Assembly: GCA_026075535.2 (NCBI GenBank)
Contig: AP026538.1
Span: 13,648,337-13,712,336, forward strand
DNA: 64,000 nucleotides
From: Tricholoma matsutake
Lineage: Eukaryota; Basidiomycota; Agaricomycetes; Agaricales; Tricholomataceae
Direction of reading: 5' to 3'
The notes under the pieces are model-generated. The model saw nothing but the letters and a program-made list of their open reading frames with translations, was not told the DNA's origin and did not search any database. Positions 5,463-63,059 of the stretch are shown here, in pieces (the first letter of the stretch is position 1; each line of letters begins with the position of its first letter). A program made the translations under genes and the position numbers.

Positions 5463-5482
5463 GGTCACCAATGGGGAAACCT

Positions 5483-16964: not shown

Positions 16965-16993
16965 GAGTCATGGTGACATGACTGGCGGGTTTA

Positions 16994-30828: not shown

Positions 30829-31128
30829 TTCTGGGGCGTACATTTAATACTTTTATTACCCAACCAAGGTATGTAGTTAATCACAGCCATTAACGGAATA
30901 ATTAATAAGTATGCATATGCATGACATGTGACATGTGACTGCCAGCTCACAACCACCACCACTGTTGCCAACGCCGCCTCCTCCTCCTCTCCACTCTACC
31001 ACCACCACTGTGTGTGCACCCACCACTACCATTCCCACACCCAATGCCACCATCACCACCACCTTCAAACGAGCCGACTGGACAGAATGCGGGCCCAAAC
31101 GATGCATATCGCGTCGTTTGCGGCCTAA

Positions 31129-31593
31129 GTATGTTTTTTTTTGTTTGCTTCTTGTTTTTTCATACTAACTAACTTGTTTCGTTTGTTTTATAGGTTCTAC
31201 TCGACTGCCAGACATAACATGGGCCCAAACGATGCAGATCGTGTCGTTTGGGCCCTAAGTAAGGTTTTTTTCGTTTGCTTTTTGTTTTTATAAACTAACT
31301 AACCTTTTTTTTAGCTTTCTAGGTTATAATCTACTGGCAATGATGCCACCACTCGCAAACGAGCCAATGTGGGCCCAAACGACGCAGATCACGTCGTTTG
31401 GGCCCTATGTAAGTTTTTTTCATTCGGTTTTTGTTTTAATAAACTAACTAACTCATTTTTTTAGTTTTCTAGGTTATAATCTACTAGTAATGATGCCACT
31501 ACCCGCAAACGAGCCAACATGGGCTCTATGTGAGTTTTTTTCATTTGCTTTTTGTTTCCATAAACTAACTAATTGTAATTTATTGCTTTTTAG
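31129..31593 (+). repeat. Tandem intron-like cassettes alternating with palindromic pseudo-exons
   Basis: Four segments look like complete spliceosomal introns: 31129-31193 (GTATGT..TTTTATAG), 31259-31322 (GTAAGG..TTTCTAG), 31409-31472 (GTAAGT..TTTCTAG) and 31530-31593 (GTGAGT..TTTTTAG), of 65, 64, 64 and 64 nt. Each has a T-run after the 5' site and an ACTAACTAA branch-like motif. They are separated by 57-86-nt blocks, most ending in the palindrome GGGCCCAAACGA...TCGTTTGGGCCC. The blocks have no shared open frame. Confidence 0.75.
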
Positions 31594-32054
31594 GTTGTAT
31601 ACTACTGGGGACAACCTGCCATGACAAAAAACACGCAACCCATGCCCATGCCCACCCGATCCCCTCCTCCCCATTCAAATGGGATGTGAGGCTGTCGACA
31701 TGGGCTAGGAGGGTGCAGAGGGATGCCAGGAGACCCCGGAAGGGGGGTACCTGCCTAGTAAGCACCCACCAACCTCTGTACTCATGCCTTGTCGCACTGA
31801 CGTGCCCAAACCCCCCCCCCCCAAAAAAAAAAAGAAAAAAACAGAAATCCAGACAGGGGACAACACCGACGAACGACGACAAGCCACCCACCCCCAGCCT
31901 CATGAGCAACTGCTTGTGGGGTGGATCGTGGGTGGAATGACACCCAGGTGCAGGGACAGGAGATGACAACGACACACCACCCACCCCCAGCCTCACGAGC
32001 AACTGCTCGTGGGGTGGATCATGGGTGGAAGGACAGACAATGGCGGGGTCACGT

Positions 32055-32335
32055 CCCCTCCCCCTCTTCCGCACTTCGTGTGGGGAGGGATTTTTTTTGT
32101 ACTTTTAATTATTTATTAGTATTGTGCCCCCCCTCCCCCATTTTGCGTGGGGGAGGGATTTTTTTCTTCATGTTTTTACCTCCCCCCTCATGTTTGGTGC
32201 GAGGGGTTAGCTTTTTATGTATATAAATAAAACTCCCTCTCGCATCTTGTGAGAGGGAGGACTTTTTGTTTATCTATGTAATCACAATCATCCCCACTCC
32301 CTCACATTCAATGTGAGGGATGTGGTTAATTAAAA
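32055..32335. repeat. Series of five GC-rich hairpins, E1
   Basis: Five short hairpins spaced about 55-60 bp by A/T-rich DNA, e.g. CCCTCTCGCATCTTGTGAGAGGG near 32235 (shown in part) and CTCCCTCACATTCAATGTGAGG near 32300. Stems are about 10 bp, loops 3-7 nt, and stem sequences differ from one another. The same five recur in reverse order at 44220-44500 in E3. Confidence 0.75.
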
Positions 32336-32407
32336 AAATTTGATCTTTCACTACTCCGAAAAAAATTAGAGTGTCATGAATAAACATTATATTACCATCT
32401 AATAATT

Positions 32408-32492
32408 CTCCTGTGGCTCAACTGGTTAAGCACACATGTTTGGTTTGTCATGTGATCACTCTAATCAAGATGTCTTGAGTTCAATCCTTACT
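32408..32492 (+). other. tRNA-like sequence (outward facing), E1 right
   Basis: Reads TCCTGTGGCTCAACTGGTTA (box A-like) and, about 50 nt later, TTGAGTTCAATCC (box B-like). Equivalent to 44062-44146 in E3 and 34448-34530 in E2. It points to the right end of E1, about 245 bp away. Confidence 0.7.
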
Positions 32493-32737
32493 CTGCACAA
32501 ATATATTTTGTAGGCACTTTGACAACTTAAGACTTGAAATTTGACTATCCATTAGGGTATATACTCTAAGTTGAGGATCTGGAGTAACCAGAATCTGGTC
32601 GGAATAACCGGAATAACTGGACTCCAACCAGAATAACTGGACTCCAACCGGAATAACTGGACTCTGACCGGAATAACTGGACTCTGACCGGAATAACTGG
32701 ACTCTGACCGGAATAGGTGGGGGAGGGTAAATTACAG

Positions 32738-34171
32738 CAAGCAATGGCCAAGTATTGGAAGGTGGCTGGTCTTGTTGGACCCATCAAGCTTATGAATTGA
32801 GACAATGCTTCCACAGCTGCCACTGGTCCCTTGGGTGCACAAACTCATGCTCTCGAAGTTTCCACAGGTGGTGCTGTGAGGTTGACGCTGTTGGTAGGTA
32901 TGTTACTACATCACAAAGACGACAAGAAAGGTCAGCAAGATTCATTCCACATTTTCTTTGAGCTTCACCTGGGTTATGCAATTCAATTCCCAGACACGAG
33001 TAACACCCAGTTTCAATCCCACTGCAATGCAGCTGTTGAACTCATTCTACATCTCCCATACTACCTTGAGTTCCTGCTCCTTGTCCGTGACAAGAAAGAC
33101 AAATGAAACTTCAACCACCTGGAAGCCAATGTCTTCAACAGCCTAAAAGATATACCGACACTCACCAAACTCTGTGTACTCGCTCTGTATTCACAAGCCA
33201 TTAGTCATCCATATATGCGCATGGTTCGAGGCTCAGGTGAGCGGTGGATGAATGCAGTTGAGCTTGGACCCTTGCACATGAAGGTACAAGCTCCTTGCTG
33301 CTGTCATTGAGAATCCACAGCTCTTGCTCGCGTCAGATGTCGACTTTAAAACCGGTGCACTAGATGGCAAACTTTGGGAATGGCCTGAGTTATTCTATGC
33401 CATCCAGAGAATGTCTGACTCACTTCCACATCTTGAGCCATGCCTTATAGCATTCTTCAAGGGTGCACTCAAAACATGGGACTGTTTCTCTTCTGAATTT
33501 GCAGATGGCAAAGCAATCTCTCAGTTGTCAGAAGCCGAAAAAAACCCCGTGTTCATTCCTGCTACCAATGACCATAACGAAGGAGCCCTGGGCAGTGTGC
33601 AACAAACTTGGCAGCATGCACCCAACATGATGATCAGCCAATACAATGCTCGAGCATTATATAAACAGAATGGCAGGGGTAGTTTCATTCGAAGTGTGCT
33701 GGGGCCCCAAGACTGCAGATTTCTTAGAAAAGAGGCCCATAAAGTTGATGGAAGTGGAGCAGAGAAGAGGAGCAAGCACAGTACAACCAGCAGATGGTGG
33801 ATGTGAAGAGAAAAGCAGCCATTGAGAGGCAGGAGAAGCTAGATGCCCAAGAAGCACAGATTGATGCAGTAACACCGATACTTGATATGGAAGAGCTAAA
33901 ACAGAAAATTAAACAGCTAACTAATTCTGAACTTACATTACAGATAAACTGGCATTGTCGACATGACACAGATGGGAAGATTCTCTCCAAGACCACAATA
34001 GGAAAGATGAGGAAGGAGGATAAAATGATGCAACTGATTGTTGCTGTCAAGAGGTATAACATGTCATTGGTACCACTGGCCGTAGCGTCTCCAGTCAACC
34101 AACATGATGTAACCGAGGAAACAGCAATGGATTGGGAGGCAGCAGAGGACGTCAAGGATGCTGACATGGAA
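32738..34171 (+). pseudogene. Conserved basidiomycete protein of unknown function, broken
   Basis: A long coding region survives in pieces: 32831-33106 and on to about 33280 in frame 2 (DSFHIFFELHLGYAIQFPDT, then LKDIPTLTKLCVLALYSQAI), then 33324-33800 in frame 3 (GALDGKLWEWPELFYAIQRM, PATNDHNEGALGSVQQTWQH, QYNARALYKQNGRGSFIRSV), then 33794-34171 in frame 2 (Lys/Glu-rich helix, then TPILDMEELKQ and KMMQLIVAVKRYN). One TGA at 33104-33106 stands where CGA is expected, and there are frame changes near 33285 and 33765. I recall similar proteins as repeated families in Agaricomycete genomes, but no function is known to me. The 5' end is removed by E1, and E2 sits just after the stop. Confidence 0.65.
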
Positions 34172-41179: not shown

Positions 41180-43201
41180 TGATGGTACTCAACCTGGGAA
41201 AACCACCAAAACAGCCAATGAGGCAATTGATGATATTTGCGACAAGTCAGAGGAAGGTTGCGAGACGTTCTGAATGCTTGTGGTCCAACCTATGGGAAGA
41301 TAGCTAGTTGGTACTAGTTGCAAAGGTAGTGCTATAGGAGACAAAGGTATTTGACGTGGTCCGATGGGGTATCAATCGATATCGAGGATGATCGACGAGA
41401 TCGACGGCGAACAAGTTTTATTGTCAATGGTTGAAGTGTAAATTTTGAGGACCTTTCGATAGGTCGATAGTATACAAAGACTATAGCCGATGGCTAGGAA
41501 GTGTTGGAATAGTTGCTAGTGCTAACAATCAGAGGATCATAGGAAGATTGAGGATGCGATGATCGCAGAGGTTTCTTGTCGATCGAGAAAACTCGTAGAG
41601 ACTTAGATTGTTTTTAGAAGATTGATTGGATGCTTAGAACTGTATACGAGACGATAGGTGAAGATGATTCCTTGTATTTCCAAGTAGATACTACAGAGTT
41701 TTATATGTTTTCAAGAAACTTCCTAAAATGGAATGAGAAACATGTGTAGAACATGAGGCAAAAGATATGAGTTAAGGCACAAGGCCAAAAAGGAGACTGG
41801 AATCCAAACAAGAAAGATATATATCATATGATGAAAGAGTAATAAAGGGTATAAAACTAAAAAGGGACTGTCCTTTGTGTAAAAACCGCGCTAAGTCTCG
41901 CAATAATTTGTCCAGCAGGTTCTGTGCGCGATACGGACTTGGAACGAGGCTGACCTACTATCAGCAGGTTTGAGCACGAGTTGGAATACTTTCTGGCACA
42001 TGGTATTCCACCATATAGATAACAAATGTGGTGCCCAATGTCGCTCGTAGTCTCTCGATATTGATCAATAACGCTCGACGATGTTCGATCACGGTCACGG
42101 TTTGTTCAACGTTGATCGGGGATGTTCGATGGTCGTTTAGAGGGATCTTAGGGGCTTTCGAGGTAGTCCTAAGGTTGTGTGATGTGGTTTCTCAGCACAA
42201 ATGATGTCGCTGGTGATGTTTCAATGCGGTTGATATGATATCGCTAGTGTTTAAAGGTCCAGTCTGTAGGACCGAAAAAAAGACCGAGACTGAACTGAAC
42301 TGGACCGATTAGGACCGGACCAGTGGTCTATTTATGGACCGGTCTTTTTCAGTCCAGTTGCTGGTCTTTCACTTTGAAAAATATAGTAGGACCGATCAAA
42401 AACCGGTTAAAACCGGTTGCGACCGGTCTTTCGTCCCAACGTATGTTGGACCTTACTCCCACACATATTTACTTCATTTTCGGTCCCTGGATCATCAAAA
42501 ACGGTCAAGAATTGGTTGAGATATGACCAAAAACATTTTTGTACAAGTATTTTGTTGTATCAGAACAACTTTGATTGCATTGCTTATTACCTGAGCTATA
42601 ATTTTTTTTGTACAGCTATATGACATCATAAAAGTAGCAACAACACACATAATTATCTGTACCATGGGATTTTATTCATATAATAGCCCAAATGAGTGCA
42701 ACTACAAACTACAAATTACAAACCCCAAACTGCAACTTGAATGCATGTCCTTTCGGTTTTGGCCATATCTCAGTCAAATCTTGACGGAATTGCTTAAATG
42801 TTGGATCGATCTACGGAGCATTACAATCTCTATCCCTGAATATAATATATATGAGGTAATGGTCACATTTGTTGAGATACATATGGGTTATTTGACACAA
42901 TAAATTTTACGACAAAAAACCGGTCCAAACCAGTCTTTTTTCGGTCCATGGACCGATTAGGACTGGTCCTAAAGGGTCCGGTTGTGGTCCTCCAATATCT
43001 GGGTCGGTCCTAAACCGGTTGCGGTTGCCGGTTGCCCCATTTTGAAGTCAAAAACCGGACTGGACTGGACCTTTAAACACTAGATATCGCGATCAATAGA
43101 CTGGGTCGCGCTGCATCTGGCACCTCGTAGGAGTTAGCCGATGTGATTAGAATGTAGTTAGAATGGTGTATCAGCCTTTGAGCCGAGGAGACAACCTATC
43201 A
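41180..43201 (-). repeat. Family D 3' LTR, interrupted by hAT MITE
   Basis: Without the 838-bp MITE and its 8-bp duplication it is 1176 bp, against 1185 bp for the 5' LTR. The difference is explained by a 9-bp tandem duplication (GAGATCGAC) in the latter near 62096. Differences between the pair are largely C/T and G/A. Confidence 0.92.
42245..43082. mobile_element. hAT-like MITE (838 bp) in D 3' LTR
   Basis: Inverted ends TAGTGTTTAAAGGTCCAGTC (42245) and its complement ending 43082, flanked by the exact 8-bp duplication GATATCGC (42237-42244, 43083-43090). Dense GGACCG/CGGTCC subterminal motifs as in the larger element at 15922-18004, so probably the same family. The intact target is preserved in the partner LTR near 62939-62947. 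No coding capacity. Confidence 0.95.
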
Positions 43202-43214: not shown

Positions 43215-44061
43215 TGAAATTCTGACTGTCCCGGTCAGTCGAGCCAAAATAACCGGGTCATGTGACATTGTTGATCATTGATTTAAGATGCATCGTGGTT
43301 CGAACTTCTCTCTTTCCATTTGATCTCTTTCATCACCCTCCTTGACAACATGTCCATCCTCACTGAACTCACCCTTCCCATCCTTGATCATGCCAAATTG
43401 ATGCCCGAGGCTGGCAAGGCCGAAGAGTTCGATTTCAAAATCTGGGGTCAAACCTTTTGTGAGAAAATGGTGTGTTTTACCCTTTCCTTCGTTTATCTGC
43501 TTCCTGACTTTGTTAATAGGCTGAATACAACGATCTCATCGGATCATTCGATGAGGCACGTGACAACCAGGTGCAAGCTACATTGGACGAGGCAATCGGC
43601 CTCTTCGCACCTTTCGCTCACGAGGCTTGGGTTTCTTGGGGTGGAAAATATCTTTTTGAGCAGTACTCAAGGAGAATTGAGGGAGAGAGGCAAAGAGAGG
43701 AGGAGAGAGTTGCTCATGAGGTGGCCATTGAGGCCAAAGCAAAGAGGATCAAGGAGCGACACAAGGCGCTGGTTGAGGCTCGTCATGCATTCTTGGCTGT
43801 AATTTACCCTCCCCCACCTATTCCAGTCGGAGTCCAGTTATTCCGGTTGGAGTCCAATTATTCCAGTCAGAGTCCAGTTATTCCAGTCAGAGTCCAGTTA
43901 TTCCAATTGGAGTCCAGTTATTCTGGTCGGAGTCCAGTTATTCCGGTTATTCCAACCAGATTCTGGTTACTCCAGATCCTCAACTTAGAGTATACAGCCT
44001 AATGGATAGTCAAATTTCAAGTCTTAAGTTGTCAAAGTGCCTACAAAACATATTTGTGCAG

Positions 44062-44146
44062 AGTAAGGATTGAACTCAAGACATCTTGATTAGAGTGATC
44101 ACATGACAAACCAAACATGTGTGCTTAACCAGTTGAGCCACAGGAG
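44062..44146 (-). other. tRNA-like sequence, E3 left
   Basis: Minus strand: TCCTGTGGCTCAACTGGTTA then, about 50 nt on, TTGAGTTCAATCC. Nearly identical to 32408-32492. It points toward the nearest element end, about 265 bp away. Confidence 0.7.
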
Positions 44147-44219
44147 AATTATTAGATAGTAATATAATGTTTATTCATGACACTCTAATTTTTTTCGAAG
44201 TAGTTAAGATCAAATTTTT

Positions 44220-44500
44220 TTAATTAACAACATCCCTCACATTGAATGCGAGGGAGTGGGGATAATTGTAATTATATACATAAACAAAAAATCCTCCCTC
44301 TCACAAGATGCGAGAGGGAGTTTTATTTATATACATAAAAAGCTAACCCCTCGCGCCGAACGCGAGGGGGGAGGTAAAAACATGAAGAAAAAAATCCCTC
44401 CCCCACGCAAAATGGGGGAGGGGGGGCACAATACTAATAAATAATTAAAAATACAAAAAAAATCCCTCCCCACACGAAGTGCGGGGGAGGGGGAGGGGAC
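44220..44500. repeat. Series of five GC-rich hairpins, E3
   Basis: Hairpins with stems of about 10 bp, including CCCTCACATTGAATGCGAGG, CCCTCTCACAAGATGCGAGA, CCCCTCGCGCCGAACGCGAG and CCCTCCCCCACGCAAAATGG (each given in part), spaced 55-65 bp by A/T-rich DNA. Where one arm has CA the other keeps CG, as expected from CpG decay of once perfect stems. Confidence 0.78.
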
Positions 44501-44657
44501 GCGACCCCGCTGTTGTCTGTCCTTCCACCCACAATCCACCCCACGAGCAGTTGCTCGTGAGGCTGGGGGTAGGTGGCTTGTCATCATTGTTGTTCCACCC
44601 ACGATCCACCCCACGAGCAGTTGCTCGTGAGGCTGGGGGCGGGTGGTGCGTTGTCGT

Positions 44658-45355
44658 TGTCACGATCCATTCCTTGCCCACTCAGAACCCACAACCTTCT
44701 GATCTTTTCTGCTTTTCCTAACTCAACTCCTACCACCTTCATTCCGGCCCCCTTGCACTGCCCACACTGCTGTGCACCAGGCCGCCATGTACAGCAACCA
44801 CGGCTGCCTTCCAAGGCTGCCATCTAGTTTTGCAAATTCGACTACGGATTCCTGTGTGGCCTCCGCTAGGCAATTTATCTATGCAGTTGAGACACTGCCG
44901 CAGTTTCCGTTTCTGTTCTGCTCTTGTTCCGGACTCTAGTATTTAAGCTTAGTCAGTTTCACTTTGTATTCCTCAGTTCATATATCGACATAGACTCGAC
45001 TTTACCCTGTCAATCTAAAAACCTCCTTCTACTCCAACTCCTGACCTCTAAGAGTCTGAACTCCATTTGACTCAACCTCTAGTTCCCCTCTGAAGTTCTA
45101 GTCTCATCTGAACTTAACCTAAGTCCCTCTGTACTCCTTCCCGCATTTACCCGCACTCTCCCACTCCTATCTCTAAAACCTCTACCTGAAATTAGGACAC
45201 CAGACGAGGTGAAGGGCGCAGCTTCTTACAAGCTGAAGCCAAGTCCTTTTCATTACCCATCCGCATAATCCGCTACGACCCAACAATCTTCCGCTCTCAA
45301 ACACTTGCTGGGTCCGACCAGATTCCGACGAGCCCTTTCAGATCAGTTCTTAACA
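44658..45355 (+). repeat. Family B 5' LTR (698 bp)
   Basis: Starts TGTCACGATCCATTCC and ends ATCAGTTCTTAACA. It differs from the 3' LTR mainly where the latter keeps CG, for example CCATTCCTTGCCCAC here against CCGTTCCTCGCCCGC there. Confidence 0.95.
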
Positions 45356-45392
45356 GTATATACGAACTCACACTTCACTCGTCTCTTCTCCT

Positions 45393-46772
45393 ATGACCCC
45401 AACTGAAACTCGCCAGCGCACAACCAGAAACTCTCAGTGCGCCGGTACCATTCCAGGGATCTCTGCAATTCAGCGATCCACACTTCCTAGCCCACGACCC
45501 GCCTCAACATTCGGAGTAACTTCCAGACCTTCCAACATTTTCCGACAAATCGGTTTCGGAGCCCCATCAATCAGTGCAAACCTCATGTCTACTCAAGCTC
45601 AACAATCTCCCGCAAATCCGGAAGAACCCCGACCCACGACTCCCCTTGAGTACATAGGGGGCATCAACCAGCCTGAACCCTATGGGTTGGAAGATCGTGG
45701 TCTAGAGGACGGACCTCCCGGTGGACCCGACGACCCTAGTGGTCCGGACGGCCCTGGGGGTGACCCCAATCCCAATGATCCTGACGATCAACCTCCTGCA
45801 GGGGGAAACCCTGATCCAGGGGATAGGTTCATAGATGTTCTTTACAACCTCTCGGAGAGTATCCACACCCTCCAACAAAATAACGCACCCAAGACCAAGA
45901 AAATCAAAGTTCGCAACCCCGACACCTTTGATGGCTCCAACCCAAAGAAACTTAGAGACTTCCTAGTTTCGTGTAACCTTCATTTCTGCGACCGTCTGCA
46001 CGTATTTTCTTCTGATGAGAAAAAGACCATATTTATCCTTTCTTATCTCAAGGGATCAGCTCTCAGCTGGTTTGAGCCCAGTCTTAACGACCTGACCAAT
46101 TCCGCACACTGGATGTGGGATTATGAGGCTTTTCTTGCCAAACTAGAGAGTAACTTCGGCCCGCACGACCCACTCGGGGATGCGGAAAAAGCTCTTTCCG
46201 ATTTAGCAATGAATAAAAGTGGTCACATCACAAAGTATAACATTGACTTTTGGGAATTAGCTTCTAGGGTCAACTGGAATGAGGCAGCCCTCCATGACCG
46301 CTATTTCTGCGGTCTTCCACTCCAACTTCGTATAGAAGTCCTTCGGGGTGGTAAACCCGACACCCTTGCAGGACTGCGCTTGAAAGCACAGGACTGTGAC
46401 AATATCTACTGGATGCAGGAAGATGAAACCCGGTTCGAAACTAAGAATTACGGGAACTCTTCTAACCCTGTCAAGAAGGACAACCCCAAAGGTTCCTCCC
46501 AGTCCACCAATCAATCCTCATCGAGCTCCCCTTGGGGAAACTCCTCCAACCAGCAGCCCTCCACGACAAAGAACACTTCCAAGTCGTCCATCTCCAACAA
46601 GTTGGGGAAGAACGGCAAACTTACTGCGGATGAACAAGAATGTCGCATGCGGGAAAGACTTTGCCTCTACTGCGGTGAAGAAGGGCACATAGCAGGAAAC
46701 TGCCCGAAGTCTAAAGCCACAAAAGCCTGCACATCCACTGTAATTCCCAATTCTGCGGACTCGGAAAAATAG
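45393..46772 (+). CDS. gag: Family B Gag
   Basis: 459 residues. The N-terminal 140 are Pro/Gly/Asp-rich (GGPDDPSGPDGPGGDPNPND), then the retrotransposon Gag fold (RNPDTFDGSNPKKLRDFLVS, then FILSYLKGSALSWFEP, then SNFGPHDPLGDAEKALSDLA) over about residues 170-340, a Ser/Asn/Gln-rich linker, and one zinc knuckle CLYCGEEGHIAGNC near residue 430. It would assemble the particle. No internal stop. The pol frame overlaps it in the -1 register at the end, where GGAAAAATAG contains the Gag stop. Confidence 0.92.
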   Translation: MTPTETRQRTTRNSQCAGTIPGISAIQRSTLPSPRPASTFGVTSRPSNIFRQIGFGAPSISANLMSTQAQQSPANPEEPRPTTPLEYIGGINQPEPYGLEDRGLEDGPPGGPDDPSGPDGPGGDPNPNDPDDQPPAGGNPDPGDRFIDVLYNLSESIHTLQQNNAPKTKKIKVRNPDTFDGSNPKKLRDFLVSCNLHFCDRLHVFSSDEKKTIFILSYLKGSALSWFEPSLNDLTNSAHWMWDYEAFLAKLESNFGPHDPLGDAEKALSDLAMNKSGHITKYNIDFWELASRVNWNEAALHDRYFCGLPLQLRIEVLRGGKPDTLAGLRLKAQDCDNIYWMQEDETRFETKNYGNSSNPVKKDNPKGSSQSTNQSSSSSPWGNSSNQQPSTTKNTSKSSISNKLGKNGKLTADEQECRMRERLCLYCGEEGHIAGNCPKSKATKACTSTVIPNSADSEK

Positions 46773-49700
46773 TCCGCAACCCTCAGGATACAGCCATTGG
46801 GGCTGGGGGTTGTGTTGACCTTACCCACTTGGCTGCCTACGTCCATCTCAATGCGTCTGCTCTTTCCGACCCTGACTCCCTAATCATCCTCTTAACTATT
46901 CCTGACCTTTCTGCCCCTGTCCGAACCCTCATTGATTCCGGTTCATCCCATTGCTTTCTTGACTCCTCTTTCATGTTGAATAACCAACTCAGCACGGAAT
47001 CCATTAACCCAATCGGTTTACGACTCTTTGATGGATCTTGCAACTCCACCATAACTCAAGTTGCCCAACTTCCGGTCACCTTTCCTACCGGTGAAATGTT
47101 CAATCTGTCATTTTATGTAACCTCGCTAGACTCTTCCTGTTCCACAGTACTTGGTCATAACTGGCTGAAGCAATACAATCCGTTGATTGACTGGTCTTCA
47201 GGCCAAATCACTTTCCGCTCTGCTGATCATAGAGGTTCAGCACCCCAGACATCTCCTTTGTCCCTGAACCTTCCGGTAGAAATCCTTGAATCCTCCGCAT
47301 TTTCTGAACCCCCCATTCCTCCTAAGTTTACACCTCCCAACATCTCTTTCATCAACGCTGCTGCTTATGCGCGTGCTAGCAAACTCCCTGGGGCAGTAGC
47401 CTTCCAGATGACCTTCGCTCCAGAAGGGTTATCCGCCCGCTCGACCCAATCCTCAATCCCGCCAGATTTATCCGACATTCCCGCCGAGTATCATGAATTC
47501 GCTGATGTCTTTAATAAGAATAAGGCAGACACCCTTCCTCCACATCGTCCTTACAACCTCAAGATAGAGATGGAGGATAATGCTCCTCCTCCTCCGGGTT
47601 GCATGTACTCCCTCTCTCCCTCCAAATTAGAAGCCCTACAAGTCTTCATTGACGAAAATGTCTGCTCAGGCTTCATCCATCCTTCTAAGTCTCTGCATGG
47701 AGCTCCTATACTTTTCGTCAAGAAGAAGGACGGTAGCCTCCAACTTTGTGTCAACTACCGAGGACTCAATTGTCTTATGAAGAAAGACCGCTATCCCCTT
47801 CCTCTCATTTCCAACCTCCTTGACTCTCCCTGAAAAGCCCGCTTGTTCACCAAGATAGACTTGCGGCATGCTTATCACCTAGTCCGCATCGCGGATGGTG
47901 ACAAATGGAAAACTACTTTCTGCACCTGCTACAGATCCTTCGAGTGGTTGGTGGTTCCCTTTGGACTCACTAATGCACCCGCAGCGTTCCAGCGTTTTAT
48001 GAACGACATCTTCAGTGACATGCTGGATGTTTGTGTCATCGTGTACCTCGACGACATCCTGATCTATTCAGATGACAAGTCCCAGCATGGGACTCACATT
48101 AAAGAAGTCCTCTGCCGTCTCCGGAAAAATGGACTTTACGCCTCCCCACAGAAATGTGAGTTCCACAAAGACACCGTTGAATATTTAGGTTTCATCCTTT
48201 CACCGGATGGACTTCAGATGTCCGAGGATAAAGTCAAAACTGTGCTCGACTGGCCCGAGCCTAGGAAAGTTAAGGACATCCAATCCTTCTTAGGCTTCTG
48301 CAATTTTTACCGCCATTTCATTAACGGTTATTCAGACATTGTCATCCCACTTACCCGCTTGACACGGAAATCTGCACCTTGGAACTTCAACAAGAAGTGC
48401 CGCGACAGCTTTGAGAGGCTCAAACAAGAATTCACTCACACACCCGTCTTAACCCAATGGGTACCCGACTCACAAATGGTACTCGAAACAGACACTTCCG
48501 ACTATGCCCTAGCTGCTATCCTTTCGGTTTACACTGCGGATGGAGAAATCCATCTGGTCGCTTTTCATTCCTGCTCCTTCAATCCCGCTGAACTAAATTA
48601 TGACACACATGACAAGGAACTCTTGGCCATTTTCGAAGCCTTCAAACACTGGAGGCAGTACTTCGAGGGTTCCGCAAACCCAGTTGATGTGGTCACAGAC
48701 CACAAAAATCTTGAGTACTTCAGCACTACCAAGTTGCTCACCCGCCGCCAGGCCCATTGGTCTGAGTACCTTTCCCAGTTCAATCTTGTCATCTGCTTCC
48801 GCCCTGGGAAACTAGGGGCCAAGCCAGACGCACTCACTAGACACTGGGACGTCTACCGCGAAGGGGGAAATAGTGACTTCGCCTCTGTAAACCCGACCAA
48901 CTTCCAACCTGTATTCACACAGGAACAACTCTCCTCTTCCCTCCGCGCCACTTATCTCGCCACACCCATCCTTTGACAAGCAGTAATCATGGACATTGAG
49001 AAACTCCACAACAACATCCGCACCTCTCTTCCCCTTGACCCTATATCTTCCGTTCATCTCCCGACACCTGTTGACCCCAACTGGACCATAGATGAGGCAG
49101 GACTTCTCCGCCACTTTGACAGGATTTATGTTCTGGACATTGTGGATCTCCACCTCAAAGTCCTCCAATACAAACATGATCATATCCTCTCTGGCCACTT
49201 CGGACAAAACAAAACCCAGCAGCTTGTCCACTGGGAATACGTCTGGCCAAACCTCCACACCTTCGTCCAGGAATTTTGCAAATCCTGTACGACTTGCAAA
49301 CGATCCAAATTGCCTCGACACAGGCCCTATGGGTTCCTAAAGCAACTTCCGGTTCCGGAACGACCTTGGAATTCCATCTCCATGGATTTCATTGAACAAC
49401 TACCCGACTCCACTGGTCACACTGCTATCCTAGTCATCGTTGACTGCCTCACCAAACAGGGCATCTTCATTCCAACTGTCAATAAAATCACAGCCCAAGA
49501 ACTAGCCAACCTGTTTGTCCTCCACGTCTTCTCCAAGTATGGTGTTCCATCGCACATCACTTGCAACCAGGGATCCAAGTTCGTCTCTCATTTTTTCCAC
49601 TCTCTCGGAAAAGCACTCGACATGCAGATCCACTTCACTTCCAGTTATCATCCACAAGGTGATGGTCAGACAGAATGACTTAACCAGACCTTGGAACAGT

Positions 49701-50453
49701 ACCTCTGGATCTTCTGCAACTATCAGCAGGATGACTGGTCTCACCTCTTGCCCTTGGGCAAATTTGCCTACAACAATGCTCCTTCTGCCTCTACAGGCGT
49801 ATCACCTTTCTTTGCCAATAAAGGTTACCACCTGAACATTTCCATCTTTCCAGAGCACGACTTAGCTTCACAGCACGCCCGCAAATTCATCGTCGATTTA
49901 GACGACCTTCACCAGGAACTTCAGAAACAACTTGTGGCCACTCAAGAACGTTATCAAGGTCCTGCGAATAAACATCGGGCACCTGCACCTGACTTCAACA
50001 TTGGTGATTTCGCTTATGTCACTGCAGAAAATATCCGCACCACCCATCCCTCCAAGAAACTCTCCGAAAAGAACCACAGTCCTTTTGAAATCATCGCCTG
50101 CCCGGGAACTCACTCAGTTACCCTGTGGCTCCCGGATCACATGCGGGCTATTCACCCTGTTTTCCATGTCTCTCAACTAGAGATACACTCCCCGAACACA
50201 ATTCCAAATTGAGTACAACCTCCACCTCCTCCGATCACCATCAATGACAAGCTCGAATATGAGATCGCGAAGTCCTCGACTCCAAAGTTGACAACCGACG
50301 TCGCTGCAAGATTCTCTACCTTGTCCGATGGGAAGGTTACCAGGGAACTGACGAAGAGACTTCCTGGCTACCTGTTAAGGAACTTGACCACGCCCAAGAA
50401 CTCCTTGCAGATTTTCACACCCGCTACCCACAGAAAATCGGACTGTTACCCAC
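46773..50453 (+). pseudogene. pol: Family B Pol (protease-RT-RNase H-integrase-chromodomain), stops present
   Basis: Frame 2. Protease with TLIDSGSSHCFLD near 46930; RT with FTKIDLRHAYHLVRI and the intact catalytic VYLDDILIY near 48040; RNase H with ETDTSDYALAA and YDTHDKELLAIF; integrase zinc-binding region (HDHILSGHFGQN, then CKSCTTC) near 49175-49300; DDE core from 49385; chromodomain near 50273-50450 (VRWEGYQGTDEETSW). In-frame TGA codons at 47831-47833, 48974-48976, 49676-49678 and 50210-50212 each stand where CGA is expected. The second integrase aspartate is changed to Asn (49565-49567, NQGSKF for DRGSxF). One base appears missing near 50272, shifting the chromodomain frame. A recently active but dead copy. 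Confidence 0.93.
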
Positions 50454-50540
50454 TTAAAGACGATTCACGTTACTTATTCACTCAGTCTGAACTCAGAACA
50501 AACTTTATTGAAAAAAGAATTTTTGGATCCGACCGGATCC

Positions 50541-51555
50541 CTAGACTACCTCCGCTTCTCCCTCTCCATCTTCGTCATCCTCTCCTCCGACTTCACCACC
50601 TTCCTCCGCTTCTCCACCTTCCCCGCCTTCATCCTCCTCTTCCTCACCCTCGCCCTCCTCCACATTGTCTGCCTGCCTTTTTTCCAAATATCTTTGGAAT
50701 CCTGCCCAGTTGTCTCCAGACTGGCAGATCCCGTGCCTTTCCTGTCAGGACTCTCGTACTGCCCGCTCCACTTCCTCCTCGTCCTTGTCACTCCCCCCCT
50801 TGATACTTTTGTCCACCTCCCACTCCGGGTCCATTGCATCCTGGATCTCCTCCATCGACTCCCTCACCGCTGTTGCCACCTCCCCAAACCATTTCCTCAC
50901 CACCTTCACCAGCTGCCATAGCAGCTCCGCCACTTCTCTGCTGTTTTCCGGTGGGCCTGCTGTTCCCGCTCCGGACCTCGCTTTTCTTACTGTTGGGGCC
51001 TCCTGCCCCTCCCACATGACCTCCTCGCACTTGTGCTTAACGTGCGTGCAGTTATCACACACGCATCCCTTTGCACCCATCTTGAAGCACGAAATTTTTT
51101 GATATTGGCACCTAAGCCATTTGTCAGTCCGAAAACATTGAAAGAAAACCAACTACGCACCTTTTGCAGGGCAAGGCGGCCTGCACCCACACTGGACTCG
51201 CCGATTCTTCTGACCCCACCCGCGCCCTTGACGTGGCAATCTTCTTCTTCTTTGGGGACTTGCTCCCCTCGGCCTCGTCCTCCAAACCCGCAGCCACAGC
51301 CGCCCGCTTCTTCTCTGCGCATTTTGTGGCCGAAGCCTCTTTTTTCCACACCGCTGCCTGGCGCACCTCCTCTGCCTTCGCAGCCTCCTCTGATGCCTTC
51401 TGCACCTCCTGCGCCCGACGTTCCTCCTCCCTTGCCACCTCCTCCAATTCTCTCACCTCCTGCTCCATCTGTTCTTTCATCTCCCGCTCCCTCTGTTCAT
51501 ACTGAGCCTTCATTGCGGCCAATTTCAGTTGAGCGGAGCCTGCTGGGGGGGACAT
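50541..51555 (-). pseudogene. Antisense accessory gene of retrotransposon B: coiled-coil protein with Zn2Cys6-like cluster
   Basis: Minus strand, between pol and the 3' LTR. ATG at 51555 (MSPPAGSAQLKLAAMKAQYE), then a long charged helix (EREMKEQMEQEVRELEEVAR), a basic patch with KSPKKKK, and PCKRC at the end of exon 1. Intron 51112-51160 (49 nt, GTGCGT..GCTTAG) joins the halves of the cluster, which becomes CKRC-x6-C-x9-C-x2-C-x6-C, the spacing of fungal Zn2Cys6 clusters, including the CxRCxxxKxxC signature. A helical region follows, then a Glu/Asp/Gly-rich acidic tail to TAG at 50541-50543. One TGA near 50745 probably replaces CGA. Same domain plan as the antisense gene of D, with little sequence identity. 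Function unknown; DNA binding is an inference. Confidence 0.78.
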
Positions 51556-51673
51556 TTTGTATAGGTGATGGAAGAAGGAAAACAACAAAATTTTTCAACC
51601 AATTGCCGCATTCGGGAGTCAACCAACTTCCTCATTTGGACTCGAACCTTCACGTGCCTCGTAGGCTCGGCAC

Positions 51674-51687
51674 TAAGGGGGAAATAC
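51674..51687 (+). promoter_or_regulatory. Family B polypurine tract
   Basis: TAAGGGGGAAATAC ends one base before the TG of the 3' LTR, the expected plus-strand primer site. Confidence 0.65.
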
Positions 51688-52385
51688 TGTCACGATCCGT
51701 TCCTCGCCCGCTCAGAACCCACAACCTTCCGATCTTTTCTGCTTTTCCTAACTCAACTCCTACTGCCTTCATTCCGGCCCCCTTGCACTGCCCACACTGC
51801 TGTGCACCAGGCCGCCATGTACAGCAACCACGGCTGCCTTCCAAGGCTGCTGTCTAGTTTTGCAAATTCGACTACGGATTCCTGTGCGGCCTCTGCTAGG
51901 CAATTTATCTACGCAGTTGAGACACTGCTGCAGTTTCCGTTTCTGTTCCGCTCTTGTTCTGGACTCTAGTATTTAAGCTTAGTCAGTTTCACTTTGTATT
52001 CCTCAGTTCGTATATCGACATAGACTCGACTTTACCCTGTCAATCTAAAAACCTCCTTCTACTCCAACTCCTGACCTCTAAGAGTCTGAACTCCATTTGA
52101 CTCAACCTCTAGTTCCCCTCTGAAGTTCTAGTCTCATCTGAACTTAACCTAAGTCCCTCCGTACTCCTTCCCGCATTTACCCGCACTCTCCCACTCCTAT
52201 CTCTAAAACCTCTACCTGAAATTAGGACACCAGACGAGGTGAAGGGCGCAGCTTCTTACAAGCTGAAGCCAAGTCCTTTTCGTTACCCATCTGCATAATC
52301 CACTATGACCCGACAATCTTCCGCTCTCAAAAACCCGCCAGGTCCAACCGGATTCTGACGAGCCCTTGCGGATCAGTTCTTAACA
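51688..52385 (+). repeat. Family B 3' LTR (698 bp)
   Basis: Starts TGTCACGATCCGTTCC, ends ATCAGTTCTTAACA, same length as the 5' LTR. Followed by GTCAT, which continues element E3. Confidence 0.95.
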
Positions 52386-52413
52386 GTCATCTCCTATCCC
52401 TGCACCTGGGTGC

Positions 52414-53169
52414 TGTTACAATTCTCCTTGTAACTCATGGAACCCGACGCACCCGATGATCCCCTCCAGACAGGAGGCACCCCTTGATTCATGCCTAGGG
52501 CATGTCCTTGACATCAGACACACACACGATGCATGCCAACTGCATGCATTCGATCCCCTTCCCGTGGAAGGCACCCTTGACGCATGGTGACTCCATGCAC
52601 CCGAACCCACTCCCACACATGCTGTGATATGACAGCCTCCTGACATGAGGTCCGTGATGTCGGACTCTCACAATCGACATGCGTCGCAGCATGTCCTTGA
52701 CATCAGATCCTTGACATCGGATCTGTGACATTGGACGCCTCATGCTAGGCATGAGGCTTATCTGTTATTGTTTCCTGACATGCTGCGCCGCAGCACTCTG
52801 TGACATCGGATGCCTCATGCAAGGCATGAGGCCTATTGTTTCTATTATTACTTGATACGCATCTACCTTTCTGATTGGACGATAAGGACCTCCCTCCTAG
52901 TATAAGTACTGCAACTTGTAGTAGGGATGTCCTTAGTTTAGATCTAGGCAATTAACAGCCTTAACTTGCAACTCACAAACTTCCTCAAAACCACTAAGGA
53001 AGCCCCTTAGTGTGTGAACCTGAACGACTCTACGCAGAAGCCCTGCTAGAGTGCACTACCTATCTTACGTCGGATGCTCTGAGTAAGACTAGTGCTGAAC
53101 GACTCGTCGAGGAAGCACCTCGTCGAATGACATCGACTAGATCAAGTGGTTGAGGCTTCACCCTTAACA
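52414..53169 (+). repeat. Family C solo LTR nested in E3
   Basis: 756 bp starting TGTTACAATTCTCC and ending CACCCTTAACA, flanked by the exact 5-bp duplication GGTGC (52409-52413, 53170-53174). It contains several copies of the CATGCTAGGCATGAGG-type palindrome and GACATCGGA-type short repeats. The element's internal region is not present in the window. Confidence 0.92.
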
Positions 53170-53624
53170 GGTGCTGTTCCACCCATGTTCCACCCCATGT
53201 TCCACCCCACGAGCAGTTGCTCATGAGGCTGGGGGCAGGTGGTGTGTCGTTGTCATCTCCTGTCCCTGTGCCTGGGCACTGTTCCACCCACATTCCACCC
53301 CATGAGCAGTTGCTCGTGAGGCTGGGGGTGGGTGGCTTGTGGTCATTTGTCACTGTCGTCCCCTGTCTGAATTTCTGTTTTTTTCTTTTTTTTTGGGGGG
53401 GGGGGGGGTTGGGCACATCAGTGCGACATGGCATGGGTACAGAAGTTGGTGGGTGCTTACTAGGCAGGTACCCCCCTTCCGGGGTCTCCTGGCATCCCTC
53501 TGCACCCTCCTAGCCCATGTCGACAGCCTCACATCCCATTTGAATGGAGAGGAGGGGATTGGGTGGGCGTGGGCGTGGGTTGCGCATTTTTCATCGTGGC
53601 ATGTCGTCCCCAGTAGTATACAAC

Positions 53625-53837
53625 CTAAAAAGCAATAAATTACAATTAGTTAGCTTATAAAAACAAAAAGCAAATGAAAAAAACTCACATAGGGCCCAAA
53701 CAATGCGATCTGTGTTGTTTGGGCCCATGTTGGCTCGTTTGCGGGTGGTGGCGTTGTTACTAGTAGATTATAACCTAGAAAATTAAAAAAATGAGTTAGT
53801 TAGTTTATTAAAACAAAAACCAAACAAAAAAACTTAC
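53625..53837 (-). repeat. Intron-like cassettes of E3
   Basis: Two cassettes on the minus strand, 53775-53837 (63 nt, GTAAGT..CTAG) and 53625-53688 (64 nt, GTGAGT..TTTAG), each with an ACTAACTAAC- or GCTAACTAAT-like branch motif and a T-run. Between and beside them are the palindromic blocks GGGCCCAAAC...GTTTGGGCCC. Confidence 0.7.
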
Positions 53838-54139
53838 ATAGGGCCCAAACAACACGATCTGCGTCGTTTGGGCCTGTGTTCCGTCCAGTCGGCTCGTTTG
53901 AAGGTGGTGGTGATGGTGGCATTGGGCATGGGAATGGTGGTGGTGGGTGCGCATGCAGTGGTGGTGGTAGAGTGGAGAGGAGGAGGCGGCACTGGCAACA
54001 GTGGTGGTAGTGGTTGTGAGCTGGCAGTCATGTGTCACGTGTCATGTGTATGCATACTTATCAATTATTCCATTAATGGCTGTGATTAACTACGTACCTT
54101 GGTTGGGTAATAAAAGTATTAAATGTATACCAAAGAATA

Positions 54140-54210
54140 ATTGCTTGGTAGCTCAGTGGTTAAGCGTGCTGTTATGTATGCAGACCCAAGGTCGAGAGTT
54201 TGATTATTGA
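54140..54210 (+). other. tRNA-like sequence, E3 right
   Basis: Reads TTGCTTGGTAGCTCAGTGGT (box A-like) and about 40 nt on GGTCGAGAGTTTGATTA (box B-like). It matches 30757-30828 on the other strand and points to the right end of E3, about 260 bp away. Confidence 0.72.
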
Positions 54211-55435
54211 TGTGTGTCGAACTTTTATTTGGGAAAGCACATGCATTCCAGTTAGTCCGGTTAGTCCGGTTATTCCTATTATTCTGGTTGTGATGAGTCC
54301 GGTCAGATTCTGGGGATTCCGGCTGTAAATTGGATCCTTATTCCGACTGGAATTGTGCTGCATAGGGAAAACTACATACAAAAAAACTTCCACCAGATTC
54401 CAGAAATTCCGGAAATTCCGGCTGGACGAACCAGAATCCAACCGGAATAGGTGGGGGAGTGTAAAGTACTCATTCTTGGCTGAAGTCCGGGCCAAGACCA
54501 TTTCGAAGGACAAATTCCGGGATCATACTGCTGCGCTCAAGGTCATGCACCTCTCAATCGATCAAGATGAGGCCAAAGAAGAAGAAACTCTGGTTGATGA
54601 CCTACCAGTCATCGAGCAGATCATTGAGAAGAGGAAGGCCGATGAGTTGGATGAGGAGAAGGAGGGTGAGGACGAGCTGGATGAGGAACCTGTGGTCACA
54701 AAGTGGGTGCGGCTAGAGGAAGGTGAGCTGATCACCTTCCATGGGCTGGTAAGTCGTCGTTTTCTTTCAATATCATTCAGACTAATCAGGCTTTCCATTT
54801 TGATTTAGTGTGATCATTGCACAGGGCTGAGGATGTCTCCAGAATGCACCATCGAGGAGGGCACCCCAAAGTGCAAACGATGCACTCAAGGCCTTCAGGG
54901 GTGTTATTGGGAGGGAGTGTCAAGGTGAGGACTCCATCAAGGCGAGTCAAGGAAAACGGCGGGCTATAAACAAGCTACAAAGGCTACTGAGGAGTTGACG
55001 GAGGTGTCGACTCCAAGATGTAGTAAGTGATTCTTCTCGATAATGAGGATGATTGCTAATCTGTACGATTACTTAGCAGTACACATCCCAGCTATCCAGC
55101 CCATCCAAAATGTGGAGACTGGGCCCTCAAAAGTTGATGAGCGCCCGAAATGAATGATGAAGGCAAAGTTGAAGTCGGCTGAGAAGGACAAGGGGAAGGG
55201 GAAGGGGAAAGCTAGAGCGCGAGAAGTCGAACCCAAGGTCGCGGGTATGGTTGAGGGGGCATCAATGGCAGTGGAGGACGAGATGATGCAGTTGGATGCA
55301 GCAAGACTCCGTCGTCGGTATCTGGCAGAAGTACTGGTGCAGAAAAAGCTGGAGGTGGAAGTTTTAATGGAGGAAATTGAGGTGTTGGAGAGGAAGTGGG
55401 AGGAATCCCAATACAATTTTGTTGTATTGTTTTAA

Positions 55436-55740: not shown

Positions 55741-58700
55741 TATTCGTCTTCATCAAGGTCAGGATGCCTTCGTCGATGTCTCCGTCGACCTCCGATGTTG
55801 TTCAAAGTTGTTCGAGCCAATGATCGTCGATATTGAAGAAGTTTGGAGGAAGGGGAATCGATTTTTGTGCTAGATATGGTAGAACTCGGAAAGCAGCTAC
55901 TGGTCGATAAAGAACTGAACCGTCGAGCTCGCAAAGAATATAAGCGCCACCGTAGTTTCGTGCGATGACAGTGAGTGGGCCGAGATATCGAGCTCGCATT
56001 TTTCAATTAAGAGCTTTGTCGATCTGTGTGTTTCACATGAGTACGAGGTCACCTTTTTCGAAATAGTAGTCTCAAATTGTTCGCTTGTGAACTTCTTCGA
56101 AGCGTTTTGCAGCTTCTCATTGAGCAGTGTAGACTCTAGAGTAGAGTACTTCGAGATCAATCAAGCGTTTCTGTAGTGCGATAGCGCATCGGGCGATGAG
56201 ATCAGTGGAGGAGAGTATCAAATCGGGTGGCAGTTGTAGATATGTTGCTTCTGAGATGTCGAGAGGGATGAGTGGATGGGAACCTGTGATCACAAAATAA
56301 GGCGAACAGCCCATTTGTTTTCGAACTGTTACCCATTCTGCCCAAAAGACCGAGTAGGTCCCAACTGACCATCGAGTTTGATCGCCATCAATGGCCTTGT
56401 AGAGTGATTGTCATATGTCGAAGTAGGCTCATTCGACGAGGCCGTTGGCACGAGAATTGTAGCCACTTATCCGAATGTGATTGATATGATAGCACTTCAC
56501 CAAGTATTCGAGAGCAGCAACAAATGCTGGGCCATTGTCAGTAATGATCTCGTAAAGCGAGCCCCATCGACAAATGATTTCTTTGAAGATCCAATTGCTG
56601 ATGGTCTTTGCTGTTTCATTTCGAAGCATCCTGAACTCTGGCCAGTACAATATCAAACATCGACCTTGTACTATATAGCAATATCCACCAGAAGGTGGCA
56701 TATGCATTGTGTCGATGTAGACTTTTCCAAATAGAGGGGCGGGGGTGGTGATGATTGGTGGAATAAGAAGATTTCGAGTTTGTCGCAACTGACAGTAGTG
56801 GCACATTTGGACGTACCATGCGATATCAGCTTTCAGGTTGGGCCACCAGAATCGTAGGGCAACATGAGACTTCGTGGCGAAGATCATTTTGTGTCCGATG
56901 TGGTCGTGTGATGACCGGATAATATCAATGTGACGTTCTGGAATCACGACAATCTTGTGTTCTCTGTGGCGATCTTTTTGTCAGAGTTTTCTGGAATCTA
57001 TGAAGAACTTGGTGCAATATTGCAAGAAGGTAGCGTACTCGGTGTCTGATAGATTTGGGGGTCGCACCATATTGTCTAACCATCTATGAATGAGCAGTAA
57101 TCGTTTGTCTTCTTTCTTTGCTTTGTCTGATCAAGGTATGTCTTCATATGAAACATCCTCCCCCTTACTGAAATCTGAAGCTTGGGCGAAAGTGGGATAG
57201 GTCGTGTGAGAGGGGAAAGGTCAAATCGAGATTGGGTTGATTTGGTGAATGAAACCATGTAGTTTGTCGATCCAGTCACCAAATTCTTCTTCTACTTTGA
57301 TATTGTCATCTTCGGTTTGTCGAGGACATCGCAAAAGACTGTCCGGCCCATGGTGCATACCTGCAACATGAACTAGCGTGAAGTGGAATGTTAGAATGGA
57401 AACGATCCATCAGTTGATGCTAGCGCTAGGCGCGATATCGGGATTTGAGAGCATGCCTTTGATATACCTCGCATCGACCTCGACAATAAGGTTTCATACC
57501 CCTATCAAATATAAACGAAGTGCACCAAGAGCTCGATATAGACCATAAAGCTCTAGTTTTGGTTGCAAGAACCAGGATTCATGGTCGTTGAGTGTGATCG
57601 AGCCGAATTGACTGTAGTATCGTTTTCAAGGGTTATCGCGGTCGCATTGTGCTAGGAAATAGCTGATCGGGATGCTCAATGTGTCGACTGCGAGGATGAC
57701 TGGGGTGTTCGCGGTATAGTCGATGGCTCAAATCGCTGGCAAGTTTAGGAGCGCTTGCTTGAGATCTTCTTGGGCTGCTACCTGAGATGGGCCGAATTTG
57801 AAGGGCACATCTTTTCGAGTAAGGTTGATTAGCACAGCTGCTCGATGTGTGAAACTCTGAATGAAAATTTGACAAACTCCGATCGTTCCTAAGAATGCCT
57901 TAACTTCTGTGAGTGTACAACATGGACCCCACTTCTGAATCTTATCAATATGTGTCGGGTCAGCCATTCAACCTTGAATATTGCATCAATGACCTAAAAT
58001 GATTATTTTGGGAACACAACCAAATAGTTTTGGTCCTGAGAACGTCCCACCACAATACTTCATGCGCTGGATGATACAATTCAGATTCTTGAAATGCTCC
58101 CATATGAATTGTCAAATGCCTGAGTTGTCGGCGATCATTTTGTACGACCCACCGATCGTTCGATAGTCTGATTTTGGACCCTTCACTGGTGTGTCATCAA
58201 TATAAGGGATTGTGATATGAGGGACTTTGGATTGTAGGATGAAAGTGACATTGTCGTGTAAGATCAGAACCGAGTTTGTCCAACCCATCGGTAGGGTGAC
58301 GATTCGAAGTGCACCAAATGGGGTCTGGAAAGTCATTAGATCTCGAGAGGATTCAGATACAAGCCTTTCATCGAATGCAACATATAAATCCAACATTCCA
58401 CCACAAGCGTGTCCTCCAAACTGTTTGGCTAAATGCTCGGGGATTGGGACAACACCTGAGTGCTGAATCATAACTTGGTTTAGTGGCTCGAGACTGTGGA
58501 CTATTCGGAGTGATTTTGCGTCTTTCTTTGCAATGCAAAACCATTGCGATCGGTATGACGAGTTCGACGACTTGTAGACTCCTGCTTTGATCTTCTTTGT
58601 CAGCATTTTGCAAATATGTTCATACAAACCAGGTGGTATGGGGATATTGTGTTCGACCCAAGGAGTGTGAGGGACAACTGGGAACTTGATAGGGGGGAAG

Positions 58701-61874: not shown

Positions 61875-63059
61875 TGATGATACTCAACCGGGGAAAACCA
61901 CCAAAACAGCCAATGAGGCAATCAATGATATTTGCAACGAGTCAGAGGAAGGTTGCGAGACATTCCGAATGCTCGTGGTCCAACCTATGGGAAGATAACT
62001 AGTTGGTACTAGTTGCAAAGGTAGTGCTATAGGAGACGAAGGTATTTGATGCGGTCCGATGGGGTATCAATTGATATCGAGGACAATCGACGAGATCGAC
62101 GAGATCGACGGCGAACAAGTTTTATCGTCGATGGTTGAAGTGTAAATTCTGAGGACCTTTCGATAGGTCGATAGTATACGAAGACTATAGCCGATGGCTA
62201 GGAAGTGGTGGAATAGTTGCTAGTGCTAACAATCAGAGGATCATAGGAAGATTGAGGATGCGATGATCGCAGAGGTTTCTTGTCGATCGAGAAAACTCAT
62301 AGAGACTTAGATTGTTTTTAGAAGATTGATCAGATGCTTAGAACTGTATACAAGACGATAGGTGAAGACGATTTCTTGTATTTCCAAGTAGATACTACAG
62401 AGTTTTATATGTTTTCAAGAAACTTCCTAAAATGGAATGAGAAACATGTGTAGAACATGAGGCAAAAGATATGAGTTAAGGCACAAGGCCAAAAAGGAGA
62501 CTGGAATCCAAACAAGAAAGATATACATCATATGATGAAAGAGTAATAAAGGGTATAAAACTAAAAAGGGACTGTCCTTTGTGTATAAACCACGCTAAGT
62601 CTCACAATAATTTGTCCAGCAGGTTCTGTGCGCGATAGGGACTTGGAACGAGGCGGACCTACTATCAGCAGGTTTGAGCACGAGTTGGAATACTTTCTGG
62701 CGCATGGTATTCCACCATATAGATAACAAATGTGGCACCCAATGTCGCTCATAGTCTCTCGATATCGATCAATAACACTTGACAATGTTTGATTGCAGTC
62801 ATGGTTTGTTCGACGTTGATCAGGGATGTTCGATGGTCATTTAGAGGGATCTTAGGGGCTTTCGAGGTAGTCCTAAGGTTGTGCAATGTGGTTTCTCGGT
62901 ACAAACAATGTCGCTGGTGATGTTTTGATGCAGTCGATATGATATCGCAATCGATAGACTGGGTCGCGCTGCGTCTGGCACCTCGTAGGAGTTAGCCGAT
63001 GTGATTAGAATGTGGTTAGAATGGTGTATCGGCCTTTGAGCCGAGGAGACAACCTATCA
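61875..63059 (-). repeat. Family D 5' LTR (1185 bp)
   Basis: Pair of 41180-43201. On the minus strand it starts TGATAGGTTGTCTCCTCGGC and ends GGTTGAGTATCATCA. Just inside (61874 downward) the minus strand reads TTTTTGGAGCCCACCACGAG, with a TGG-starting stretch that could be a tRNA primer site. It preserves the empty target of the hAT MITE found in the other LTR. Confidence 0.94.

Follow-up and report, generated by a model that had tools for sequence, protein, structure and literature searches.

Element B, a Ty3 chromovirus in a 64,000-nt stretch of the Tricholoma matsutake genome (hereafter the window; contig AP026538.1, 13,648,337–13,712,336), carries between pol and the 3' LTR an antisense gene whose intron keeps its position and whose reading frame is under selection across subfamilies B and B2; a second case is found in element D. 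Two distant lineages in one genome both keep an antisense gene under clear protein-level selection, and the cysteine clusters of the two proteins suggest DNA binding. Element B probably makes its own regulator.

Structure of element B and its antisense gene

Element B spans window positions 44658..52387 on the plus strand, as delimited by self-comparison of the window, with a 700-bp 5' LTR (44658..45357, +) that is 95.6% identical to the 3' LTR (51688..52387, +) in the same comparison. The gag gene (45393..46772, +) is recognized by Pfam Retrotrans_gag and DUF4939, and pol (46829..50457, +) contains protease, RT–RNase H, integrase, SH3_Tf2-1 and chromodomain matches in Pfam. The pol frame is broken in the window copy, and its end is placed at about 50457. 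The chromodomain (PF00385) lies at the integrase C-terminus and scores 32.6 bits in B copy L025 against a cut-off of 25.1. A truncated B-type element, consisting of an LTR and the start of gag only, is also present in the window at 7475–8955 on the minus strand.

The antisense gene runs from 51555 to 50541 in two exons on the strand opposite to gag–pol. Exon 1 (51161..51555, –; 395 nt) starts with the ATG at 51555, 132 nt from the inner edge of the 3' LTR, and encodes a Lys/Glu-rich N-terminus, a basic stretch and the first cysteine. The 49-nt intron (51112..51160, –), with the signals GTGCGT..CTGAC..TTAG in the window, lies within the cysteine cluster C-x2-C-x6-C-x9-C-x2-C-x6-C, which occupies 51027..51168 (–), intron included. 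Exon 2 (50541..51111, –) encodes the remainder of the cluster, a predicted helix, the acidic tail and the stop. Position, strand, intron length and cysteine spacing agree with the sequence-only reading from which this analysis started, though the window copy is broken by a premature TGA at codon 254 (50745..50747, –).

In most open copies the B protein has 321 aa and consists, in order, of the Lys/Glu-rich N-terminus, SPKKKK, the cluster PCKRC-x6-C-x9-C-x2-C-x6-C, WEG, the helix and the acidic tail; SPKKKK resembles a nuclear signal. An additional window cysteine inside the x9 loop is Arg, His or Cys in the translated B copies, a CpG-type change, and is cysteine in both B2 copies. A structure prediction of the cluster had been proposed as a check, and it gave a divided answer: in a single-sequence model of a 121-aa exon 2 piece, the helix (residues 61–80) is confidently predicted (block pLDDT 93–94), but the cluster, present in this piece without its first cysteine, reaches only 38–43 and is not resolved.

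A sense ORF that overlaps the antisense gene (51033–51857) was considered and rejected: the sense frame open over antisense exon 1 in B copy L022 has a ratio of 1.31, with two stops in B2 copy L070. Over exon 1 it is open in all 21 B copies. The stretch GGTTCGAGTCC (51638–51648, –), which resembles a tRNA B box, lies in the interval from the polypurine tract to the antisense ATG and is found without change in 14 of 20 B copies. ARAGORN, run with bacterial settings, called no tRNA beside the antisense gene, and an Rfam search on the question of a tRNA-like stretch gave only an lncRNA match elsewhere, below the cut-off. No clear pattern of CGG/CCG triplets was seen in the LTRs.

Conservation of the gene among B copies

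A DNA search with the antisense gene returned 619 first-look candidates, of which 40 were scored, and all 40 match the gene at 91%–100% identity; since only these were scored, the copy number of at least 40 is a lower bound, and because loci were found by their match to the gene, B elements lacking it would go unseen. The best 20 of the other 39 scored loci were compared with the window, giving 21 copies. The distance of 132 nt from the antisense gene to the 3' LTR, seen in the window, recurs in all 20 fetched loci. Both LTRs were found in 17 of the 20 loci, the pairs being 92.8%–96.6% identical, and an exact 5-bp duplication is seen at the ends taken in 7 of these 17.

The intron ends GT and TTAG are kept in 21 of 21 copies and CTGAC in 20; all six cysteines are likewise kept in 20 of 21. 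The frame is stop-free in 12 of 21 copies, with the window copy among the broken ones. A TGA at codon 251, at codon 254 or at both is present in eight of the nine broken copies; the remaining one has TAG at codon 96. The donor GTGCGT has decayed in 10 of 21 copies to GTGCAT (8) or GTGTGT (2), with loss of the CpG. Across the 21 copies, 162 of 167 exon CpG columns are variable compared with 48 of 799 other columns, and near-total variation of CpG columns is the mark expected of heavy cytosine methylation. The sequence-only reading would have been contradicted by the lack of a similar gene in other copies or by a frame random across them; a similar gene is present in 20 of 20 loci, themselves chosen by their gene match, and 12 of 21 copies are open.

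Selection on the B antisense gene

Within the B burst, no significant synonymous excess is found (p = 0.14 for transitions and 1.0 for transversions), in keeping with decay of the copies once inserted. Selection was therefore tested between subfamilies B and B2. Using the related LTR at 16258–16965 as a query, 40 of 1671 candidates were scored, and among these at least eight same-strand B2 LTR pairs lie 5.8–7.0 kb apart, at least four of them near 7.0 kb. Both stretches examined before the 3' LTR, from two of the ~7.0-kb pairs, hold the antisense gene. B2-type LTRs also flank window 16258–25084, which holds a LINE-like endonuclease–RT ORF (21974–24022) and an apparent ORF1.

In the two B2 copies the gene is 75%–76% identical to the B gene at the nucleotide level, and about 135 nt separate its ATG from the edge of the LTR. 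The cluster is kept as CKRCKYQKIACFKMGAKGCMC.NC..VKHKC, and an intron of 50 nt occupies the same position as in B, with GT, CTGAC and YAG in both copies. L070 contains one internal stop; in L069 there are several, and its tail is shifted.

Each of six B copies, out of the 21, was counted against L070 only; these comparisons, which are not independent, gave dS of 1.06–1.22, dN of 0.16–0.19 and dN/dS of 0.14–0.16. Without CpG codons, the ratio is 0.12–0.15 (Fisher p 1e-21 to 1.9e-24). When L022 and L070 were compared in six frames per exon, the gene frame gave ratios of 0.20 and 0.28 and the codon-aligned mirror frame, which contains stops, 0.36 and 0.37, with no other frame well below 1. A chance frame is excluded, because the ratio is well below 1 only in the gene frame and its codon-aligned mirror. 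Between B and B2, exon 1 is 80.3% identical, exon 2 71.5% and the intron 75.5%; as intron identity is not below that of exon 2, the intron can be called kept by its position and signals alone. These substitution counts indicate that the B antisense frame has clearly been conserved by selection since the split of B and B2.

Element D carries a second antisense gene

Element D lies on the minus strand, with its 5' LTR at 61875..63059 (–) and its 3' LTR, itself interrupted, at 41180..43201 (–; 93.8% and 95.8% identical to parts of 61875–63059). Remains of integrase and RT occupy 56429..58393 (–; Integrase_H2C2, 1.7e-15; tblastn with the B RT). The D RT is 20% identical to the B RT over 302 aa (tblastn, 8e-9).

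The D antisense gene is read as four exons encoding 406 aa in all. Exon 1 (43350..43469, +), defined by alignment with locus L071, starts at a distance of 148 nt from the edge of the D LTR; exon 2 runs from 43520 to 43784 (+), as far as a nested insertion, and its remainder, encoding an acidic part, lies at 54471..54748 (+). Exon 3 (54809..55022, +) encodes the cluster C-x2-C-x8-C-x8-C-x2-C-x6-C, and exon 4 (55077..55414, +) encodes a basic stretch and a helix-prone tail. In exon 4, nine of 10 other copies have TAG where the window has TAC. The insertion that splits the gene (43785..54470) is an element that also matches window 30511–32746, with B inside it, and CATTCTTGGCTG is present at both of its junctions; element B consequently sits inside the D antisense gene. 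The claim that B and D are distant Ty3 families with an antisense gene in the same place is supported by the RT identity and by the ATG distances of 132 and 148 nt. For D, the place beside the LTR edge is seen in L066 and L071, and the pol side in the window only.

With the D gene as query, 514 candidates were obtained, and the 40 that were scored match at 81%–100% identity. This indicates at least 40 copies; as they were detected through the gene, D elements lacking it would escape notice. Ten of the remaining 39 were compared together with the window. Codons at window-gap columns were left out of the alignment, which makes the L066 row one alanine short. A further 707 bases beside L066 revealed the start of the gene, with an additional exon and, ahead of the cluster, a helix-prone segment rich in Lys and Glu. 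Six cysteines are kept in nine of 11 copies, and in the part read only L066 of the 11 is stop-free. The ends of the introns at 54749–54808 (60 nt) and 55023–55076 (54 nt) are kept in all 11 copies. In these introns 12 of 45 and 13 of 46 non-CpG columns are variable, an unexplained smaller share than at third positions.

Among the non-CpG columns of the 11 D copies, 89 of 200 at third positions are variable compared with 84 of 435 at the others (p 1.3e-10), the 200 and 435 columns including about nine codons past the D stop. Over 55 pairs, pN/pS is 0.26 without CpG codons (0.31 with them), with single pairs ranging from 0.17 to 0.55. In the start region, window versus L071, the ratio is 0.31 (p 4e-9), and 0.29 without CpG codons (p 7e-6). 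By these counts, the D antisense gene is also under protein-level constraint, and the proposal that selection keeps the gene in both families is borne out. A weak match to the D cluster in a LINE ORF1 (window 21157–21681; E 0.59) was set aside as ordinary knuckle-like cysteines.

Comparison of the two genes and their spread

The B and D genes have in common the strand, the place, the distance to the LTR and a charged tail, and the proteins share a Lys/Glu-rich N-terminal stretch and a six-cysteine cluster, with WEG soon after the last cysteine in B and in 10 of 11 D copies. They differ in the number and positions of introns and in cluster spacing. The idea that the two are one shared module gained no support: the similarity of the two clusters is not above that of shuffles with the cysteines fixed (p 0.12–0.15), and profile comparison with hhalign gave no match. 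A common origin of the two genes is no more than possible.

Such a gene is not universal among the Ty3 elements of this genome. Element A (window 1250–7468), whose RT is 42% identical to that of B, has no room for one, because its integrase–chromodomain ORF extends to 1662, next to the LTR end at 1650. A survey of chromodomain loci scored 30 of 150 loci (5153 candidates) with about 1.5 kb of flank each; 29 of the 30 belong to one abundant family, in two clusters distinguished only by the strand on which the loci were cut, and tblastn with the antisense proteins of B and D as queries found nothing in the 30 loci at E 1. The abundant family has, at L033 718–1401 (–), a sense ORF with two zinc knuckles, below the Pfam cut-off, after the chromodomain.

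Relation to Zn2Cys6 proteins and database searches

Zn2Cys6 domains (PF00172) follow the spacing C-x2-C-x6-C-x5..12-C-x2-C-x6..8-C, and their regulators usually carry a coiled coil after the cluster. The B and B2 clusters fit this consensus, which agrees with the earlier label "Zn2Cys6-like". The D spacing (x2-x8-x8-x2-x6), with x8 in both inner loops, does not fit it, and the profile evidence for B stays below the threshold: the full B protein has no Pfam Zn_clus match, a typed 59-aa B piece scores 18.3 bits against a 21-bit cut-off, the window's own 39-aa piece scores 9.7 bits, and the B2 and D pieces give none. A Zn_clus search of the genome gave 81 matches. The second half of the B cluster, CDNC-x6-C, aligns to the start of the Zn_clus profile. 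Compared with the fungal Zn2Cys6 regulators, the B protein is canonical in spacing and reversed in order, with its putative coiled coil before the cluster.

No Pfam family reached its cut-off with either antisense protein; the scans contained no CCHC match for B or D, no bZIP match for B and no TRP28 (PF04195) for B, B2 or D. Nothing was found for the B protein in PHROGs, and nothing significant in the PDB by sequence. Protein searches returned nothing at E 1e-3 for the 253-aa window B protein and nothing at E 0.1 for the D alignment. The exon 2 alignment found one relative, L208DRAFT_694466 (hypothetical, partial, T. matsutake; E 4e-32), which matches at 76% over 32% of the query, in the C-terminal part without the cluster. 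Its 76% match to L070 suggests that it is a B2 gene copy.

Possible role of the antisense protein

Taken together, the cysteine cluster, the acidic tail and published precedents suggest that the B protein is most likely a nuclear DNA-binding regulator of its own element. The gene would be expressed as its own spliced antisense transcript, starting in or just before the 3' LTR. Because the genomic RNA has the opposite polarity, splicing would not remove the introns of the antisense gene, and they may be spared in retrotransposition; antisense placement would then help to explain how introns can persist in a retroelement. The protein would enter the nucleus, dimerize through the N-terminal coiled coil and bind DNA through its zinc-held cysteine cluster, and the acidic tail may act on transcription (or silencing) of element B itself, a target and a sign of effect that we infer. 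A comparable action has been suspected of antisense proteins from retroviruses and plants, namely HBZ and gene23 of Grande. We give this full account, from spliced antisense transcript to a dimeric zinc-cluster protein acting in the nucleus on its own element, even chances of being right.

Other roles can be read from the same features. The strong CpG decay of B copies means that relief from methylation would pay, and the protein could counter DNA methylation or heterochromatin on its own copies rather than act as an ordinary transcription regulator; with nothing linking it to demethylation and no domain match, we consider this unlikely, though worth keeping in mind. A part in targeting or import, in which the protein would accompany the pre-integration complex and direct nuclear import or the choice of insertion site, is rather improbable. 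SPKKKK would suit such a factor, but chromodomains serve in targeting, so that B already has a domain able to do so, and making the protein from an antisense RNA of its own would be an unusual route into a particle. Import has been raised by the authors of a review as a possible role of antisense proteins (PMC7264820). A cysteine cluster with basic stretches would also be compatible with an RNA-binding or nucleocapsid-like chaperone on element RNA, and the zinc-knuckle ORF of the abundant chromovirus family offers a parallel; the lack of a CCHC match and the acidic tail make this reading improbable.

Two further explanations would deny the protein a function in the element. The gene has introns, as host genes do, and a T. 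matsutake database protein matches it, as would be seen for a captured host fragment carried as a passenger. Against this, it occupies the same place in 20 of 20 B loci and in both B2 copies, it has been constrained since the B/B2 split, and the database match is probably a B2 gene copy, which together make capture very improbable. That the antisense RNA alone matters, through double-stranded RNA control, with the open frame incidental, has been proposed for antisense transcripts of LTR elements (PMC7264820). The strong protein-level constraint in B and D argues against it, and dN/dS largely refutes it, leaving it scarcely credible here.

Comparison with known antisense genes

HBZ is a bZIP protein and not a cysteine-cluster protein. 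Antisense accessory genes in Ty3 elements are already known from plants (Grande, Retand) and from fungal Boty, according to the published descriptions. In the window and in all 20 fetched loci, the B gene has the aORF-3R placement: it runs antisense to gag–pol and is situated between pol and the 3' LTR. A term search found no "antisense" in the main text of a survey of fungal LTR elements (PMC3248453), and no antisense gene with a cysteine cluster in a fungal LTR element is named in the titles and abstract openings of open-licence papers among the matches listed.

The closest fungal parallel is brtn, reported by Zhao et al. (2011) as an antisense gene in Boty-like Ty3 elements of Botrytis cinerea (PMC7264820, PMC8365987, PMC4227169). 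As in B, the element is a fungal Ty3 with a chromodomain, and the gene lies between pol and the 3' LTR; unlike B, the host is an ascomycete, and the passages describing brtn mention neither a cysteine cluster nor an intron. In plants, the antisense proteins of Grande (gene23), with nuclear location, and of Retand (TRP28), with predicted DNA binding, are both encoded between pol and the 3' LTR (PMC7264820, PMC11963269), and TRP28 antisense ORFs occur in 97% of Retand clusters (PMC11963269). These resemble the B gene in orientation, place and suspected nuclear or DNA-binding nature, and are present in most copies of their families by the same accounts. The differences are that Retand is a plant non-chromovirus, that TRP28 is not found in the B, B2 and D proteins, and that the accounts of gene23 and TRP28 describe no cysteine cluster.

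Beyond Ty3 elements, HBZ of HTLV-1 is likewise described as an antisense accessory gene near the 3' LTR (PMC11963269, PMC7264820). Its product is nuclear, and its coiled-coil part bears a loose likeness to the B protein, with no common ancestry claimed. A broader and still tentative proposal, to which we would give less than even chances, is that distant mushroom Ty3 lineages share a class of self-encoded, spliced antisense cysteine-cluster proteins that would bind DNA and either regulate their own LTRs or relieve them of silencing. Such a class would be a fungal counterpart of HBZ, with either a single acquisition followed by transfer across lineages or several separate gains.
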